Shown piece by piece: positions 28,804-62,082 of a DNA stretch of 64,000 nt. How positions within the stretch are numbered: the first letter of the stretch is position 1; every line of letters starts with the position of its first letter. The position numbers and the translations under genes were made by a program. The DNA comes from a bacterium (GTDB lineage Bacteria > SZUA-79 > Acidulodesulfobacterales > Acidulodesulfobacteraceae), in assembly GCA_021850985.1 (NCBI GenBank), contig JAJZJX010000001.1, positions 1 to 64,000 on the forward strand, read 5' to 3'. The notes below the pieces were generated by a model, which saw only the letters and a program-made list of their open reading frames with translations, searched no databases and had not been told where the DNA came from.

Positions 28804-29322
28804 TCAGGCATTTGTAATGTCCTTTAATTTATTTAATTTATTTAATTTATTTTTTGCAGATTCTATCATCCACTTTTCTCCGAAAATACTAAAATCTTCC
28901 ATTTGAAAAATGGCTTCGTTTCTTAATGCAATATATTTATCGTAATTTTTTATAAATAAAGGTATGCCTAAAACTATAACGTTATAATATAAAAAGGGCT
29001 TTCTGAAATCATGATAAAGCGGCATTACGTTAACTTCTGCGCTCATTATTTTATATAGTTCGTTTGCAATATCGGTCGTTTTAAAAAAAATATCTTCATC
29101 CGAAAATACAGAAAATTTATCGCTATCGAAAACTATTCCAATATCTATATCTGAATCTTTGTTCGGAAAACCGTTTGCCTGAGAACCGAATAAAAATGCG
29201 GCTTCAATGTTAAATTTTACTGCATTTTTTTTAAAAAAATTTTCTAATTGTTTTATAATATTCATGTTGGTTGGTTCTTTATCTTTATTGATTTTTTTGG
29301 TAATTAATTCCATATTTTCCAT
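28804..29322 (-). CDS. MNT-type nucleotidyltransferase domain protein
   Basis: A 172-residue protein with FLFGSQANGFPNKDSDIDIGIVF (in two parts: FLFGSQANG and KDSDIDIGIVF) at about residues 43-66, the minimal nucleotidyltransferase GS...DxD signature. No HEPN gene is next to it, so it is a lone or orphan member. The upstream sequence AAATATGCTATAATTATTTT before the ATG is nearly the same as that of the MNT gene at 1574; the -10 is 6 nt from ATG with no Shine-Dalgarno. A downstream in-frame Met (29265) is an alternative start. Confidence 0.75.
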   Translation of the reverse strand: MENMELITKKINKDKEPTNMNIIKQLENFFKKNAVKFNIEAAFLFGSQANGFPNKDSDIDIGIVFDSDKFSVFSDEDIFFKTTDIANELYKIMSAEVNVMPLYHDFRKPFLYYNVIVLGIPLFIKNYDKYIALRNEAIFQMEDFSIFGEKWMIESAKNKLNKLNKLKDITNA

Positions 29323-55677: not shown

Positions 55678-56598
55678 TTATATAAAATTATGCGCTTTCA
55701 AATAATCTAAAGAAGTTATTAAATCTTCTTTAGACCTGTTTTCTATTATAAAAGGCCCTGAAAATTGCCCATTCTCTATAATGGAATTAAAAAATCCTGC
55801 AGGGTTTAAAATACCGGTTCCTAACGATCTGTGTTCGTTTCTTACGGTAGTTCTTAAGTCGATTCTTTTTTCCGACATATCCTGTATATGCATTTCGCCT
55901 ATACGGTTAATGCCGAATTTTTTTAGAAAATCCTCCGGCGCAAAGCCGTTTAATCCCCAATGCCCCATATCGAAGCAGATAGAAACTCCTAATTCTTCGG
56001 CAATAGGATACAGATAATCAAACGGAAAAGCTTCAAGATTTTCTAAAGCAAAAACGTCCGGCGGCAGTTCGGTTTCTTTTAATATTTCGGACATGCTTTT
56101 CTTTGCCTGGCTTACGGCAATATCGATTAAAGCCTTTTTTGCATTTTCTTCGATAGGAAAGAACATAATGGAATCTTCAAATTCGGAAGTCAGATGGATA
56201 ACGAATTTTTTAACGTCCAGCCCGCGGCATGCATTTATTACCAAAATTATCGCTTTAACGGAAACCCGCCTGTAATCTTCTAAAGGACTTGCCGGATTAA
56301 GCTGAAGATACGGAAGATGAACCGAAACAGAAAGCGGAAACGATAATTTTGAAGAAAATGCGCTTATAGAAGGAATAATGAATTTTTGCAAAGAATCCGG
56401 ATTTAACTGCTCTATCTCTGTATTTATCTCGATATTGCCTATGTTATACGAATTCAAAAGATTGAAAAAACCGTCGAAAGAAGACTTTAGGCGGCCGAGA
56501 TTGTTATCGCCGAGAAGACCGAAACCTATGCCGAAAAACGAGTCGGTATTTACTCCGAAATGCAGCCTGCCGTCTTTATTAAAATTTTCGCAATACAT
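55678..56598 (-). CDS. sugar phosphate isomerase/epimerase family (TIM barrel)
   Basis: A 306-residue xylose-isomerase-like TIM-barrel protein. Visible barrel motifs include VSVHLPYLQLNP (about 92-103), KKFVIHLTSEF (about 130-140), ALENLEAFPFDYL (about 185-197), ICFDMGHWGLNGF (about 211-223) and IGEMHIQDM (about 237-245). The metal-binding Glu/Asp/His pattern is kept. Substrate unknown. A TATAAT lies exactly 6 nt before the ATG without a Shine-Dalgarno. Confidence 0.8.
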   Translation of the reverse strand: MYCENFNKDGRLHFGVNTDSFFGIGFGLLGDNNLGRLKSSFDGFFNLLNSYNIGNIEINTEIEQLNPDSLQKFIIPSISAFSSKLSFPLSVSVHLPYLQLNPASPLEDYRRVSVKAIILVINACRGLDVKKFVIHLTSEFEDSIMFFPIEENAKKALIDIAVSQAKKSMSEILKETELPPDVFALENLEAFPFDYLYPIAEELGVSICFDMGHWGLNGFAPEDFLKKFGINRIGEMHIQDMSEKRIDLRTTVRNEHRSLGTGILNPAGFFNSIIENGQFSGPFIIENRSKEDLITSLDYLKAHNFI

Positions 56599-56604
56599 TT
56601 ATTA

Positions 56605-56631
56605 ATTATATCAGATTTAAAAATAAAAATA
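56605..56631 (-). promoter_or_regulatory. 27-bp promoter-like sequence shared with 60427-60453
   Basis: The 27 bases here are identical to 60427-60453. On the minus strand both contain AAATCTGATATAAT with the TATAAT ending 6 nt before an ATG. The second copy overlaps a porin terminator. Confidence 0.5.
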
Positions 56632-56690
56632 GATAATTAACTGCTTGTTTTACTTTCGTAATAAAAGGATAATAAATATATAAGTTTTAA

Positions 56691-56719
56691 TTGAAAATAT
56701 TAATCTGACTGGCTATAAT
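56691..56719 (+). promoter_or_regulatory. sigma70-type promoter of the cytochrome c gene
   Basis: TTGAAA (56691-56696) and TATAAT (56714-56719) are separated by exactly 17 bp. The start of the cytochrome gene, with AAGGAGGT before it, lies 43 bp downstream of the -10. Confidence 0.7.
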
Positions 56720-56761
56720 AAAAATGTAACGTAAAACTAAAACTTTATAAGGAGGTTTAAA

Positions 56762-57118
56762 ATGTCCGTTAAAAAAATATTTTTGTTAACTTCTTTTTTA
56801 TTTTTTGCCGGATTTTTATTTATTTCCGTTAAACTTAGCTTTGCTTTGCATAAATCTTCAATAAAAACAAAACGCGAAATTAGCATATTAAAAGGCAAAA
56901 GGATTGTTTTAAAATCCGGATGCATCCGCTGCCATTCTTTCGTTAAGGGAAAAAGAACCGATAATATAGCAACTCTTGCGGGATGGGGAAATAAACATTT
57001 TTCGATTAAGCAGACGGAAAAGGCAATCAGAAGCTGCAGGATGGATCCTTACTGCTCTCAAATTTTAACTGATAAGCAGGTTAAATATGTTGCTTATTAT
57101 CTTAATTCTTTAAAATAA
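56762..57118 (+). CDS. periplasmic monoheme cytochrome c-like protein
   Basis: A 118-residue protein with an N-terminal signal or anchor helix (FLLTSFLFFAGFLFISVKLS) and one haem-binding CxxCH, SGCIRCHSFVKG at about residues 53-64. A second Cys pair (SCRMDPYC) and ILTDKQVKYVAYYLNSL end the protein, like small class I cytochromes. The Met in CRMDPYC is a possible sixth ligand. AGGAGGTTTAAA precedes the ATG. It is 20 bp upstream of the GHKL ATPase, perhaps only by chance. Confidence 0.8.
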   Translation: MSVKKIFLLTSFLFFAGFLFISVKLSFALHKSSIKTKREISILKGKRIVLKSGCIRCHSFVKGKRTDNIATLAGWGNKHFSIKQTEKAIRSCRMDPYCSQILTDKQVKYVAYYLNSLK

Positions 57119-57137
57119 AATCGGCAAAGAAACGCTA

Positions 57138-58697
57138 ATGGGCGAAACAAGAGTTAATTTACATCATTTATTGGAAGATATACGGGATTCCTATCCGTTT
57201 CCGCAGGAAGAGGTTATCATTACGGAACTCGTCGCAAATTCGCTCGATTCTCATGCAAGCGATATAAGGTTTATCGTCGATCCCGAAAAATATATTCTGA
57301 CCGTTACGGATAACGGTAAAGGAATGAATAAAAAAGAATTAGACGGATATCACAATATTGCTTCCACTACGAAAACAAGGGGCGTGGGTATCGGTTTTGC
57401 GGGCGTAGGCGCAAAATTATCCCTGTTAATAGCAAAAGAGGTCATTACGGAAACGGCAAGCGGTGATTTCCGCGGCGCAACAACTTGGAAATTGGAGAAT
57501 GACGAAAAAGCCCCATGGAAATATATACAGATAGAACCGGAAAATTCAAAAATGTCTAACTATCAAAACGGAACCGCGGTATCGATATTTTTCAGGTATA
57601 GTAATTCCGTGCTGCTAAACGCTGATTTTCTGAAAAAGACTATTCAAAAACATTTTTACACGATTCTTGATCCGACTTTTCAAACTGCATTAAGATTTAT
57701 TTATAAAAACGGCATCAATTTTTACGTGAACGAAGAAAAAATAAATTTATCTGAAATGATGGATTTTGAAAAGAGCAAAGCTTTTAAAATTCAATTTGGA
57801 AAAAAGGCGAAACCTGTAGGTATCGGTTTCATCAGAAAATATAAAGATCCGCTTGACGAAGAAAAAAGGGGTATGGCAATATCTACTTGCGGTAAAGTCA
57901 TCAAGCACGGGTGGGATTGGCTTGGAATTTCGACGAAAAATCCGGATTGCATATCGGGAGTAGTAGAAATGCCCGGCCTTTCGCTAATTTTAACAACAAA
58001 TAAAGCAGATTTTTTAAAAGATACGGCAAGTCTGCAAAAGTATTACCGCTATAGAAAAGCCGTTCAGGAAGTTATAGAACCTATTTTAAAAGAATTCGGC
58101 GAAATAAACGAATCCAGAGAAAAACCTGCAAAAGAATTGCGTCCGCTTGAAAAAGAAATTCGTGAAATTCTGGATAATATGCTTAAAGACTTCCCCGAAT
58201 TAGACCCTTTGTTCGGCAGAAGAAAAAAATTGGAAGCCGATAACGGCGTTTTAGACGATGCTTCAGCTTTAGAAAAAGGAACGGCGATAGAAGAAAAAGA
58301 TTCTGAAAGAACCGATATAAACAACGGCAATATAGGAAAAACCGAAGATGTCGAAGAAAGCGAAGATATAAAAAATCCCAAAAACAGACTTCCAGATTTA
58401 GATATAGATGCAGATGAACAAAAAAACGGTAAAATGCAGGAAGGAAAAAGAAAGCCGCCCGGATTAATGATCGGGTTTTACGATAATAAAGATTCAAATG
58501 AATTGGGAAAAATAGAAGAAGGAACAGTATGGATAAATAACGAGCATCCTGCTTTCAAGAAAATTGCAAAAAGCGGCGGAGAGAAATATCATATCGTCGT
58601 TTCAACCGCATTTGTTTTATCAGGATATCTTCAGGAACAGAAATCTTTGCAGGCATTTATAAACCGATTTTTATCTGACTGGGGAAAAGAAGTATGA
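57138..58697 (+). CDS. GHKL (HSP90/MutL/histidine-kinase-fold) ATPase, uncharacterised
   Basis: A 519-residue protein whose first 200 residues form a GHKL ATP-binding domain: N box TELVANSLDSHA (Glu30, Asn34, Asp37), G1 box DNGKGM (58-63) and G2 box GVGIGFAGVGAKLS (82-95). The arrangement resembles MutL/MORC-type ATPases more than sensor kinases; there is no phospho-acceptor His domain. Residues about 340-440 are acidic and Lys-rich, probably flexible, before a conserved-looking end (HPAFKKIAKSGGEKYHIVVS). Its stop overlaps the next start by ATGA, so the pair is translationally coupled. Confidence 0.75.
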   Translation: MGETRVNLHHLLEDIRDSYPFPQEEVIITELVANSLDSHASDIRFIVDPEKYILTVTDNGKGMNKKELDGYHNIASTTKTRGVGIGFAGVGAKLSLLIAKEVITETASGDFRGATTWKLENDEKAPWKYIQIEPENSKMSNYQNGTAVSIFFRYSNSVLLNADFLKKTIQKHFYTILDPTFQTALRFIYKNGINFYVNEEKINLSEMMDFEKSKAFKIQFGKKAKPVGIGFIRKYKDPLDEEKRGMAISTCGKVIKHGWDWLGISTKNPDCISGVVEMPGLSLILTTNKADFLKDTASLQKYYRYRKAVQEVIEPILKEFGEINESREKPAKELRPLEKEIREILDNMLKDFPELDPLFGRRKKLEADNGVLDDASALEKGTAIEEKDSERTDINNGNIGKTEDVEESEDIKNPKNRLPDLDIDADEQKNGKMQEGKRKPPGLMIGFYDNKDSNELGKIEEGTVWINNEHPAFKKIAKSGGEKYHIVVSTAFVLSGYLQEQKSLQAFINRFLSDWGKEV

Positions 58698-59155
58698 AAT
58701 TGCAGACAAAAGAAAAATATCCTTTAAAAATAACAAGAGACAAAATAACCGGAAGATACAAAGCCGCTACTTCGATAGGCAAACTTGACGACGAAACAAA
58801 AAATATCAGGCAGGAATTAAGTTTTATCGAAACCGACTATACGATTTTATTGAGCGATATAAGAGGATTGCTGTCGGAAGCCTCTATGCGTTCTAATAAG
58901 AAAGCAGATCCCCGTTTGTATTGGTTAATAGGCGAAAATATTCTGCGTTTTGTTGAAAGACTCGACGACCTCGGTTTTTATATTTTAAAGCAAAATAAAA
59001 CATTTGCGACGGATACCGGCATATCCGAAAGTTCTATAGGTAAAATAATTTCTTTCAAAAAAAGATTTTCAAAAATCTCTATGTTAGACCCTAATGTATC
59101 ATGGTCTAAATACAGGGATAATAAGGCTGCCGATAAGGCTTTGAAGAAAGCATAA
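58694..59155 (+). CDS. DUF1016 N-terminal-like helical protein
   Basis: A 153-residue protein beginning inside the stop of the GHKL gene. The middle and end, DPRLYWLIGENILRFVERL then GFYILKQNKTFATDTGISES, SSIGKIISFKKRF and VSWSKYRDN, resemble the helix-turn-helix-like N-terminal module of DUF1016/YhcG proteins (YWxIGxxI ... LSWxxY). The C-terminal PDDEXK nuclease of YhcG is absent. It may serve as a DNA-binding or specificity partner of the ATPase. Inference only. Confidence 0.55.
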   Translation: MKLQTKEKYPLKITRDKITGRYKAATSIGKLDDETKNIRQELSFIETDYTILLSDIRGLLSEASMRSNKKADPRLYWLIGENILRFVERLDDLGFYILKQNKTFATDTGISESSIGKIISFKKRFSKISMLDPNVSWSKYRDNKAADKALKKA

Positions 59156-59215
59156 ATTTAAATTTCTTTTCTAATGTCCGACCCTTTTATTATTCAATTA
59201 TGATAAAATAATTAT

Positions 59216-59554
59216 ATGTATTCATATGAAACCGATTCGTTTAAAAGGATTATTAGCAAAATAAAAACCGGAGCGGGAAGCAGTATAATAAGCGTCACGG
59301 CTTTCGGTTCGCGGGTAAGGGGCGATTTTTCGGAAGATTCCGATATGGACGTTCTCGTAGTCGTCGATAAAAAATCGCCTAAGGAAATTTCTTTTATAAA
59401 CGATATTTTTTATGAGGAAGAAATTAAGAGCGGTATTCCGTTTTCCGTAACAGTCGTTCCATTGCATTCATTTAATAGTAACAAAAGATTTAAAACAGGT
59501 TTTTATCAAAACATTAAAAAAGATGGGGTTGTTTTATATGGAATTAACCCGTGA
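59216..59554 (+). CDS. MNT-type nucleotidyltransferase domain protein
   Basis: A 112-residue minimal nucleotidyltransferase: TAFGSRVRGDFSEDSDMDVL (about 24-43) carries the GS...DxD signature. The end FKTGFYQNIKKDGVVLYG is typical of MNT antitoxins of MNT/HEPN pairs. The partner starts 17 bp before its stop. TAAAAT lies 6 nt before the ATG and no Shine-Dalgarno is present. Confidence 0.78.
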   Translation: MYSYETDSFKRIISKIKTGAGSSIISVTAFGSRVRGDFSEDSDMDVLVVVDKKSPKEISFINDIFYEEEIKSGIPFSVTVVPLHSFNSNKRFKTGFYQNIKKDGVVLYGINP

Positions 59555-59759
59555 CGAAAAAACGGCATTATCGGATTTAAGATTTCAAAAATCGAAAGAA
59601 ATGCTTGAAGATGCTTTATTCAACCTAAAATCAAAAAGATTTAAAACGTCGGCAAACAGAAGCTACTATTCCGTATATCATGCTGCAAGGTTGCTGCTTA
59701 TTCTAAAAGGCATAGACCCTGCAAAACATGACGGCGTCAAAACTATATTGATTTTTTAA
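59538..59759 (+). pseudogene. HEPN-domain protein truncated at the C-terminus
   Basis: The frame overlaps the MNT stop by 17 bp and reads MELTRDEKTALSDLRFQKSK, then SANRSYYSVYHAARLLLILK and GIDPAKHDGVKTILIF before a stop. The N-terminal half matches UPF0332-type HEPN toxins up to the KHSGV-like point, but the C-terminal half is missing. The end runs into the 3' end of the convergent small gene at 59743-59934. Confidence 0.6.
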
Positions 59760-59934
59760 TTTTATAAAAAAAAATCTTAGACTCTTCGAGCCATATTAAC
59801 GTTTCTTTTATAGTGAGCGGGCTGCCGCCTAAACGGTCATCTGACGATATAACTGTGTTATTATCGTTATTAGTATTGCAGTCTATTAAGTTATTTAAAT
59901 TATTGCGCTTGGGCGTAATTTTTTCTTTTTTCAT
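59743..59934 (-). CDS. small protein paired with a nucleotidyltransferase
   Basis: A 63-residue protein, basic at the start and ending SPLTIKETLIWLEESKIFFY then KIKKSI. Small proteins with an end like ETLxWLEExxxFFYKI often occur next to nucleotidyltransferase genes. It follows the 59944 gene by 9 bp on the same strand. Its 3' end overlaps the truncated HEPN by 17 bp. Function unknown. Confidence 0.5.
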   Translation of the reverse strand: MKKEKITPKRNNLNNLIDCNTNNDNNTVISSDDRLGGSPLTIKETLIWLEESKIFFYKIKKSI

Positions 59935-59943
59935 ATTTTCGGC

Positions 59944-60420
59944 TTATCGTTTTTTTAGTTCTTTAATATCCTCGTTATCTCTATCCCGTCCGGCAATAGA
60001 TTTTAAAGTTATCAAATCGTTTTTATTAATAACGTATATTTCAAAATCATCATATTTAATTATTTTTCTTCTTTCAAACAATTCGTCGAAATTCATTAAA
60101 GATTTTAAAAAAACATCCACGCTGTGATAAGGCTCATTTCGTTTATAAAAATTGAAAACAATCAAATTTTTTTCATCGACCCACCTTTTCCTTACGGTCT
60201 CTGATTTTATATCGTTAATATCGACCGGAAGCAAAGGAATCATATCAAGATTTTTTAACGCTTTTAAGAGTTTATCGAGGTTTTCTTCGCTTAAATCCAG
60301 TAAAATATCTATGTCGTAGGTTGACCTTATAACGCCGTAAATATTCACGGCATGCCCGCCGCCAAGAAGATACCTTACTTTATTTTGATATAATTCCGAA
60401 AAAAAATCGTCGTAAAACAT
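59944..60420 (-). CDS. nucleotidyltransferase-fold protein (AbiEii/DUF6036-like)
   Basis: A 158-residue protein with LLGGGHAVNIYGVIRSTYDI followed by DILLDLSEEN, the GG(x)A(x)...R.T.DiDi pattern of AbiEii-like and DUF6036-type nucleotidyltransferases. The second half (YHSVDVFLKSL, FEIYVINKNDLITLKSIAGR) is also typical, and the end is DREDI-like RDRDNEDIKELKK. With the small downstream gene it forms a probable two-gene module. A TATAAT lies 6 nt before the ATG within the 27-bp shared sequence. Confidence 0.72.
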   Translation of the reverse strand: MFYDDFFSELYQNKVRYLLGGGHAVNIYGVIRSTYDIDILLDLSEENLDKLLKALKNLDMIPLLPVDINDIKSETVRKRWVDEKNLIVFNFYKRNEPYHSVDVFLKSLMNFDELFERRKIIKYDDFEIYVINKNDLITLKSIAGRDRDNEDIKELKKR

Positions 60421-60426
60421 ATATTG

Positions 60427-60453
60427 ATTATATCAGATTTAAAAATAAAAATA
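60427..60453 (-). promoter_or_regulatory. 27-bp promoter-like sequence shared with 56605-56631
   Basis: Identical over 27 bp to 56605-56631. On the minus strand it ends with TATAAT exactly 6 nt before the ATG of the 59944 gene, and its upstream end overlaps the T-run of the porin terminator. Confidence 0.5.
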
Positions 60454-60474
60454 CCCGCTTTTTAGGGCGGGTAT
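60451..60474 (-). terminator. intrinsic terminator of the porin gene
   Basis: On the minus strand ATACCCGC pairs with GCGGGTAT across an 8-nt loop and is followed by TTTTATTTTT (60450-60441). It lies 40 bp beyond the porin stop at 60514. Confidence 0.85.
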
Positions 60475-60513
60475 CAGGGAGGTGCTAGAGAGAAAAGCTA
60501 TTGAGTTAATAGT

Positions 60514-62082
60514 CTAGAATGCAATTCTTGCCTGCATGAAAAAGGCGTTGGTCTGCCCCATCCACTGGCCGTAATCTTGATAATACGTCGAGCTTGCAGG
60601 TAAATCTCTATAATCTTTAGCATACAGATATTGATAATTCTGCCAGTCAGCAGTTAAAGTAACATGGCTATTAAGATGATACGCCAATCCTACTACGCCT
60701 CTTTGGAAATCAAAGGGATTTCCAGACGGTAAAGCATCACCGTTAGAATTGTAATTGGTATCTTGATAATAATATCTCTGAATAAGCCCGAAAACTCCGA
60801 ATTTAGTATTTGGGATATTGTAATATCCGAAAGCGTCGTATCCGTGTTCGACATTATGACCGTCATACAAGCTTGTGATTGGAGGCATTGTGCTTGAATT
60901 GTAGCATCCGTAAACACCGCCTTCTATTCCGCAATAACTGTCATTATCCCCGCTTTCGCCTGCGCCAGGTTGTACTGTGTGATTTATTGCATAATCATAC
61001 TGCAGCGCGATATTGGCATTCGGCGTTTTATAGTCGAGTACAGCCGAAACTCTCGTTTCAGGACTGTTTGTATTTGGACCTATAGCAGCATCTCCAAAAC
61101 TTGAATTATCTTCTGCCCAAGCGTAATATCCGCTAATGCTTAGTCCGTTTAGTGCAGAATCAGCTCCTAAAGGATAAATAGTTAATCTTGCCTGAGGAGA
61201 TTTCTGGTCAACGGTTTCATTGGCATGAAATGCGGCGTTATCAAAGAAACCGGTGTTATATGCAAGATAAACCCTTCCGTTCGCTCTGTATTTGCCGGAA
61301 ACGCCGAGTCCAGCCTGAGTAGATGTTACGTTTAAGAAACCCCACGGGGTTCTTTCCGCAACATGATAACCCAATAAACCGTCTTCCCATGCGACCATAG
61401 GAGTCGGAAACTGTCCTGCTTTTAAGTTGACTGTTAAACCGTTTGCGTCGTAAACATGATTGAACTGCAAAAATGCGTATTTCAATCTGAAATATTCGTT
61501 ACCGCCGGTAGAACCGCCGCTACTAGCACTGTTGTCTGATTTATTAATGTTGGGCGTAATTTTCAAAAACCAGTTATCCTGATGATACAGGAATATTAAA
61601 TATGCCCTGTTTACGTTAAACGCATTATAACCGTTGTTTCCGGTTGCAGGCGGATTTTCCTGAAGTTGCAGAGAACCTTCGGTTAGTCCCGTCTGGGTAT
61701 AATACCCGTAACCCATATAAATTAATGCGCCTAACGAAACATTCTTCGTCCACGCCGGAAGGGTTTCCCCCTTGACGGTTTTCAGCGAAGCCTCTAACTT
61801 CTTTTCCGTAGTTTTTAAATTGTTAATCTGCTTTGTAGTCTTTGCCGCATTCGGCTTCAACAGCTGATTGATGACGCTCTGTCCTACTTTTACCCTGCCG
61901 GGGCCGGGCGTTAAAAATATTTCGCCGGTGTTGGGGTTTTCGTAAAGGGCGGCTCCCGATGCGTAAGCCTTCCCTGCCCCGCTGAACGAAAAGACTAATG
62001 CCAGAACTGCGGCCGTTGCAAATATAAATGCCGGCAGCATGTTCAGCCGCATAGTCTTTTTTGTTTTGTTAATTTCGTACAT
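60514..62082 (-). CDS. outer-membrane porin with N-terminal coiled coil
   Basis: A 522-residue protein. After a signal peptide (about residues 1-41, FIFATAAVLALVFSFSGAGK then AYASGA) the mature part starts with a helix (INNLKTTEKKLEASLKTVKG) that can form a coiled coil, followed by beta-barrel sequence rich in Tyr, Asn and Gly. The C-terminal NAFFMQARIAF ends in Phe, as outer-membrane barrels do. It resembles porins with N-terminal coiled coils that trimerise or touch the wall. GAGAGGAGGAAGTC precedes the start, and a Pho-box-like repeat lies about 80 bp upstream. Confidence 0.75.
   Translation of the reverse strand: MYEINKTKKTMRLNMLPAFIFATAAVLALVFSFSGAGKAYASGAALYENPNTGEIFLTPGPGRVKVGQSVINQLLKPNAAKTTKQINNLKTTEKKLEASLKTVKGETLPAWTKNVSLGALIYMGYGYYTQTGLTEGSLQLQENPPATGNNGYNAFNVNRAYLIFLYHQDNWFLKITPNINKSDNSASSGGSTGGNEYFRLKYAFLQFNHVYDANGLTVNLKAGQFPTPMVAWEDGLLGYHVAERTPWGFLNVTSTQAGLGVSGKYRANGRVYLAYNTGFFDNAAFHANETVDQKSPQARLTIYPLGADSALNGLSISGYYAWAEDNSSFGDAAIGPNTNSPETRVSAVLDYKTPNANIALQYDYAINHTVQPGAGESGDNDSYCGIEGGVYGCYNSSTMPPITSLYDGHNVEHGYDAFGYYNIPNTKFGVFGLIQRYYYQDTNYNSNGDALPSGNPFDFQRGVVGLAYHLNSHVTLTADWQNYQYLYAKDYRDLPASSTYYQDYGQWMGQTNAFFMQARIAF

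Follow-up and report, generated by a model that had tools for sequence, protein, structure and literature searches.

A GHKL-type ATPase gene overlapping the gene for a small DUF1016_N-like protein, and its solo relatives in other phyla

Introduction

In animals and plants, MORC ATPases keep transposons silent; the way in which they grip DNA is still argued. The group is defined by an S5-domain motif, GhXhhpXXRhl, and MORC and paraMORC relatives function in restriction-modification systems (Iyer et al. 2008, PMC2292703). VcSduA, a protein that joins a GHKL ATPase to a nuclease, is antiphage (PMC12137116). The DUF1016 (YhcG) proteins consist of an N-terminal part, DUF1016_N (PF17761), and a nuclease half (PF06250) that belongs to the PD-(D/E)XK family (PMC1913061).

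Here we describe a gene for a GHKL ATPase from a bacterium of the Acidulodesulfobacteraceae, together with the gene that overlaps its end and encodes a small protein resembling DUF1016_N. Both lie in a stretch of 64,000 nucleotides (assembly GCA_021850985.1, contig JAJZJX010000001.1, positions 1 to 64,000 of the forward strand), which we refer to as the window. The initial annotation had put the two genes forward as a candidate coupled system, with a role in defence suggested by the neighbouring genes.

Results

The ATPase carries intact GHKL motifs and a predicted S5-like region

An ORF check of the window placed the ATPase gene at 57138–58697 on the forward strand, encoding 519 amino acids, exactly as first described. 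The Pfam domain HATPase_c_3 matches the protein above its cut-off (E = 3.7e-13) and is present in all 27 aligned homologues; Pfam revealed no output domain in the ATPase, be it a kinase, a nuclease or another. The features of the GHKL superfamily (the N-box Glu and Asn, DxGxG in G1, GxxG in G2, and the GT motif) are all found in the protein, and the homologues keep the four motifs intact with few exceptions or none. The N-box, EEVIITELVANSLDSHA (residues 24–40, positions 57207–57257), contains the catalytic Glu30 and Asn34, both of which are invariant among the 27. The G1 box, DNGKGM (residues 58–63, 57309–57326), contributes the invariant residues D58, G60, G62 and M63, and is followed by the G2 box, GVGIGFAGVGAK (residues 82–93, 57381–57416). 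The original description of a GHKL ATPase with intact N, G1 and G2 boxes and no kinase output is thus borne out by the conservation of the motifs and by Pfam. Matches to histidine kinases and to MutL were weak and below cut-off, and membership of either group was rejected.

The predicted S5-like region follows the ATP domain. At the place of the MORC motif the protein has RGMAISTCGKVI (residues 244–255, 57867–57902), in which Lys253 stands where MORC has Arg; the lysine is invariant (27/27) and the family form of the motif is GhAhSTxGKVI. Further along, LTTNKADF (residues 285–292, 57990–58013) includes the invariant K289 and is a candidate lysine finger of the S5-like domain. A poorly conserved, low-complexity acidic linker (residues 363–436, 58224–58445) leads to a conserved C-terminal module (residues 436–519, 58443–58694), whose invariant residues are N467, H470, Y484, H485, W515 and G516. 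There is no basic tail after the terminal WG in the protein encoded by the window, and no relatives of the C-terminal module were detectable.

The profile of the 27 ATPases was compared by hhalign with two proteins, L022 and L151, which are genuine bacterial MORCs (above the Pfam Morc6_S5 cut-off and with Arg present in the motif). The match (96%, E = 2.3e-9) covers profile columns 27–308, an alignment that spans both the GHKL and S5-like regions and pairs LTTNKADF with VTHNKREF of L022. The S5-like region by itself scored 0.3–0.4% against MORC, which is not significant, and no PDB chain matched it. None of the 27 family members matched PF17942 (Morc6_S5). By the motif definition the ATPase is not a MORC, because Lys replaces Arg in every member. 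In layout it appears to resemble the paraMORC group.

The L022 protein, a Candidatus Magasanikbacteria MORC with a Morc6_S5 domain (L022:5902–8007), is fused to sigma-70 region 4 and a DnaA C-terminal helix-turn-helix.

The small partner resembles the N-terminal part of DUF1016

The second ORF (58694–59155, forward strand) encodes 153 amino acids, and its start shares the four bases ATGA with the stop of the ATPase gene. This overlap, reported in the initial annotation, was confirmed in the window and is kept in all seven intact pairs that we found. The protein is basic (net charge +11, pI 9.8), and the small partners as a group have net charges of +10 to +16. As a single sequence it matches DUF1016_N with E = 0.064 and 13.8 bits, below the Pfam cut-off of 32.8 bits; the PADLOC model PDC-S02 matches it at 6.6e-5. 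A profile built from six small proteins gave 91% and E = 1e-6 by hhalign when compared with 15 DUF1016_N domains, whereas unrelated control profiles gave 0.2–0.3%. The alignable part comprises residues 55–141 (58856–59116), from YWLIG, paired with YWxIG, to VSWSKYR, paired with LSWSH. About 50 N-terminal residues lie outside it. The C-terminal PD-(D/E)XK nuclease of DUF1016 was absent by Pfam, and the small protein ends at residue 153. The resemblance to the N-terminal part of DUF1016/YhcG, which had been claimed together with the lack of the nuclease, is therefore upheld by the profile comparison. Neither protein of the pair seems to match any named family, a conclusion that our sequence comparisons support.

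Within the genus of the window, dN/dS is 0.09–0.14 for the ATPase and 0.12–0.34 for the small gene, which indicates that both are under purifying selection there. AlphaFold models from a five-sequence alignment had pLDDT values of 31.5 (ATPase) and 53.5 (small protein) and were too poor to interpret because the alignment lacked depth.

Within the genus the pair is an accessory element of a variable interval

A gene for a small secreted monohaem cytochrome c-like protein (CxxCH; 56762–57118, forward strand) ends 19 bp before the ATPase gene. G000, G013 and G014 have such a gene 19–21 bp before the ATPase, and G026 has it at this distance before the ATPase fragment; it is absent from the loci of G006 and G015. 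It is probably co-transcribed with the ATPase, and the shared spacing has no obvious functional reason. The best promoter-like site, TTGAAA-17-TATAAT (56691–56719, forward strand, 11/12), lies upstream of the cytochrome c gene and is a consensus match only, the total of such sites being no higher than expected by chance.

Downstream, the MNT/HEPN and AbiEii-like genes that had been reported were all confirmed as neighbours outside the pair. They are an MNT-type nucleotidyltransferase gene (59216–59554, forward strand), the position of which differs in sister genomes, a HEPN gene (59523–59759, forward strand) and a DUF6036 (AbiEii-like) nucleotidyltransferase gene (59944–60420, reverse strand). 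With 78 amino acids, the HEPN protein is shortened in comparison with those of G013 and G014 (143–144), which may mean that the toxin-like half of the MNT-HEPN module is broken. MNT-like genes occur at 1574–2044, 28804–29322 and 59216–59554 of the window, and PADLOC PDC-S09 models match three proteins. With several such genes in 64 kb, little significance attaches to finding one beside the ATPase.

The interval between the porin and TIM-barrel genes, which harbours these genes (55678–62082 in the window; L185–L195), is variable across the genus. At this site a single 318-aa ORF takes the place of the pair in G003, G007 and G009, and G001 is almost empty. G011 has BrnT/CopG, DUF6036, MNT and HEPN genes, and G012 has a BrnT/CopG-like pair. 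In the window, G013 and G014 the ATPase pair has MNT-HEPN beside it, though not always on the same side; in G002 the porin adjoins the pair, after which the contig ends. G005 contains a decayed pair (L195:2043–2815), with 138 codons of the ATPase and 109 of the small gene, beside a likely VapBC-type pair and a broken TIM-barrel gene. A DUF4143-type AAA ATPase is among the other occupants of the interval. Since the contents of the interval differ between sister species, the pair is, in this genus, an accessory cassette that occupies a variable location where toxin-antitoxin genes are plentiful. No restriction-modification, helicase or nuclease genes lie near the pair in the window, and, loose models of single genes aside, PADLOC recognised no defence system in the window.

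The small protein is tied to the ATPase, which usually occurs alone

Of 61 relatives searched, 12 carry the ATPase in whole or in part. A full-length gene is present in seven genomes of the window's genus, counting that of the window itself, and in G055, from an unrelated phylum, where the ATPase is 42% identical to that of the window. The intact pair, with its four-base overlap, is present in G000, G002, G006, G013, G014 and G015, all of one genus, and in G055. A profile search found nine copies of the small protein in the 61 genomes, each adjoining the ATPase or its remnant. The 16 genomes of the genus hold seven intact ATPases and one decayed pair, and the pair is absent from G003, which is 100% complete. 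In G012 (ATPase identity 61%) the remaining 132 bases of the contig contain, in place of the small gene, the start of an MNT-like gene.

Within the genus, identity of the ATPase largely follows that of LeuRS (ATPase/LeuRS: 90/91% in G013, 85/90% in G014, 86/88% in G002 and 84/82% in G015). G006 departs from this trend, with 86% for the ATPase against 71% for LeuRS. Its ATPase could be an acquisition by transfer, but it lies on a 5.6-kb contig of a genome with 6% contamination. ATPase fragments in G026, G029 and G001 were not accepted as transfers, as misbinning or assembly breaks are possible; in G029 and G001 they sit at the edge of a contig, and G015 has a contig almost identical to the one concerned in G029. 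Searches of plasmids, phage records and IMG/VR viral contigs found no copy of either protein. One viral match (L042) covers only ∼80 residues of the ATP domain and was not counted as a copy.

A wider sample of 386 genomes added two carriers of the ATPase, G129 and G237. In the phyla to which these belong, it is present in 27/95 and 10/47 genomes (37/142 together). A longer frame in G237 (1729 aa) was rejected as a fusion; the start of the ATPase is a Met inside this frame, and what precedes it looks like a GC-rich artefact. Solo loci in the two other phyla were regarded as checkable when the C terminus of the ATPase was intact and at least 800 bases followed it. None of the 29 such loci has a gene resembling that for the small protein (best E 23). 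Genomes of these phyla do encode DUF1016_N proteins, located elsewhere, and none has a DUF1016_N-type gene in the neighbourhood of the ATPase. Homologues of the ATPase thus mostly do without the small protein, as is probably also the case in G012. The proposal of a coupled two-gene system stands where the small protein exists, always beside the ATPase or its remnant and with the overlap in 7/7 intact pairs, but not at the 29 solo loci. Since the small protein is tied to the ATPase and the ATPase is usually alone, the proposal is limited to one branch of the family.

The neighbours of the solo ATPases include genes for GlnRS, enoyl-CoA hydratase, RidA-like proteins, nitroreductase, transport and similar functions, and are shared within one genus. 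Among the families listed for 80 neighbour proteins there are no restriction-modification, helicase or nuclease families. In G055 the pair lies between TatD-like and LOG-family genes, and so recurrent placing among defence genes was not seen in unrelated genomes. The variable interval of the genus, with its MNT-HEPN, BrnT/CopG, VapBC-like and DUF6036 genes, thus fits the defence context first suggested, but elsewhere the neighbours are housekeeping genes.

In G055 the LOG/SLOG-family gene (L054:9976–10623; PF03641, PF18306) shares the bases ATGA with the end of the small gene, which suggests a three-gene operon in that genome.

Solo ATPases have a basic tail that paired ATPases lack

In a phylogenetic tree all solo ATPases form one clade (support 98/100), and the paired ones, together with that of G012, fall outside it. 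After the invariant WG the solo proteins continue for 9–23 residues that include 2–9 Lys/Arg (e.g., AAIERRKGRSRR), whereas all seven paired ATPases have only three residues. The last 12 residues of solo ATPases contain on average 5.4 Lys/Arg, compared with 1.75 (p = 1e-11) for 156 further proteins encoded at these loci, as predicted by a simple ORF caller whose output includes some false ORFs. The base composition of the solo phyla differs too, but the low average of other proteins from the same loci means that the basic tail is not simply a product of composition. G012 has neither the tail nor, in what is left of its contig, the partner. The pattern is suggestive of tail and partner doing the same job, contact with nucleic acid, in cis and in trans respectively. 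It is not proof, as the contrast represents a single split on the tree.

Discussion

A possible ATP-gated clamp

We propose that the ATPase most likely dimerises on binding ATP and that the dimer would close around or against DNA, in the manner of a MORC- or MutL-like clamp. Because the protein carries no nuclease, methylase or helicase, its effect may come from holding DNA, compacting it or blocking it, or else from the recruitment of enzymes that other loci encode. In the solo branch, basic contact with nucleic acid would be made in cis through the conserved Lys/Arg-rich C-terminal tail. In the paired branch, to which the window belongs, the tail is missing, and the translationally coupled, basic DUF1016_N-like protein may supply the contact, or the choice of target, in trans. 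This model, in which the ATPase would be a member of an uncatalogued GHKL-S5 family of the MORC/paraMORC/MutL kind and the basic contact would be a tail in one branch and a small partner in the other, is tentative, and we judge its chance of being correct to fall a little short of even. A small bacterial relative of MORC that has no nuclease, helicase or methylase and comes in two natural forms would offer a simple test of what an ATP-driven clamp does alone. DUF1016_N would, for its part, gain a function separate from its usual companion nuclease.

Alternative roles

The pair could instead act against phages or plasmids: foreign DNA would be sensed or bound by the small protein and blocked or silenced by the ATPase, much as by MORC-type and paraMORC3/Shedu proteins. 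Such a role would suit the patchy distribution in the genus (seven intact ATPases and one decayed pair in 16 genomes, with none in the complete G003) and the exchange, at one site, with MNT-HEPN, BrnT/CopG, DUF6036 and a VapBC-like pair. The DUF1016_N-like partner with its match to PDC-S02 points the same way, as do the MORC/paraMORC relatives in restriction-modification systems (PMC2292703) and the antiphage GHKL-nuclease protein VcSduA (PMC12137116). However, the swapping toxin-antitoxin modules aside, there is no nuclease, toxin, methylase or helicase in or beside the pair; plasmids, phage records and IMG/VR yielded no copies; and the solo relatives have metabolic genes as neighbours, such as those for tRNA synthetase and enoyl-CoA hydratase, none of the families listed being a restriction-modification one. 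On balance the accessory behaviour in the window's genus favours a role in conflict there, and the solo contexts do not. An antiviral role of the pair is possible, but we regard an anti-phage or anti-plasmid system as rather unlikely.

The ATPase might also be viewed as a chromosomal repair or organisation factor, similar to MutL or Hsp90, with the small protein a lineage-specific accessory subunit and the defence-like site a coincidence. The housekeeping neighbours of solo orthologues (shared within one genus), the strong purifying selection and the general agreement of the ATPase with LeuRS would fit such a factor. Yet the gene is missing from most genomes of each phylum (present in 27/95, 10/47 and 1/17) and from complete sister genomes, it has decayed in G005 with no replacement seen, and in G006 it is out of step with LeuRS (86 vs 71). 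A factor of this kind is unlikely. A toxin-antitoxin-like pair, in which an ATPase harmful by itself would be neutralised or repressed by the small basic protein, is very improbable: the two overlapping genes, their site rich in toxin-antitoxin modules, the strict tie of the small protein to the ATPase and their joint decay in G005 agree with it, but no fewer than 29 solo ATPases persist without such a partner and retain these motifs, the gene order (large, then small basic) is atypical and there is no toxic enzymatic domain.

The clamp model can be carried a step further. A nuclease-free clamp whose cis tail has been exchanged for a DUF1016_N-type subunit might serve, in this genus, as a mobile module that silences or excludes foreign DNA. 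We offer this as a speculation, improbable as it stands; if true, it would be a bacterial counterpart to eukaryotic MORC silencing.

Comparison with known systems

The GHKL motifs are held in common with MutL and Hsp90, and the ATPase has weak NCBIfam matches to MutL and HtpG that fall far below the curated cut-offs. It lacks the C-terminal endonuclease of MutL, and matches to Hsp90 chains in the PDB are limited to its ATP domain. VcSduA, of the Shedu type, likewise has a GHKL ATPase, and its middle domain is proposed to be clamp-like (PMC12137116); it differs in carrying a fused DUF4263 nuclease, which the pair is without. The small protein is alignable with DUF1016/YhcG (PF17761 DUF1016_N plus PF06250 nuclease) over YW-IG ... 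SW--Y. It differs in having no PD-(D/E)XK nuclease and an N-terminal extension of its own, and as a single sequence it stays below the Pfam cut-off.

The prokaryotic MORC and paraMORC proteins (PMC2292703) have, like the ATPase, an N-terminal GHKL domain; an S5-like region with a candidate lysine finger is predicted to follow it in the ATPase, in the same order as in those proteins. In the motif MORC has Arg, whereas all members of the present family have Lys. Restriction-modification, SFII helicase and nuclease neighbours are usual for most paraMORCs, whereas the neighbourhoods scanned here have none nearby, and the restriction endonuclease or TIR domain fused in paraMORC3 and paraMORC4 has no equivalent in the ATPase. 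Finally, unlike MORC and paraMORC, the family has its own conserved C-terminal module, marked by N467, H470, Y484 and H485.
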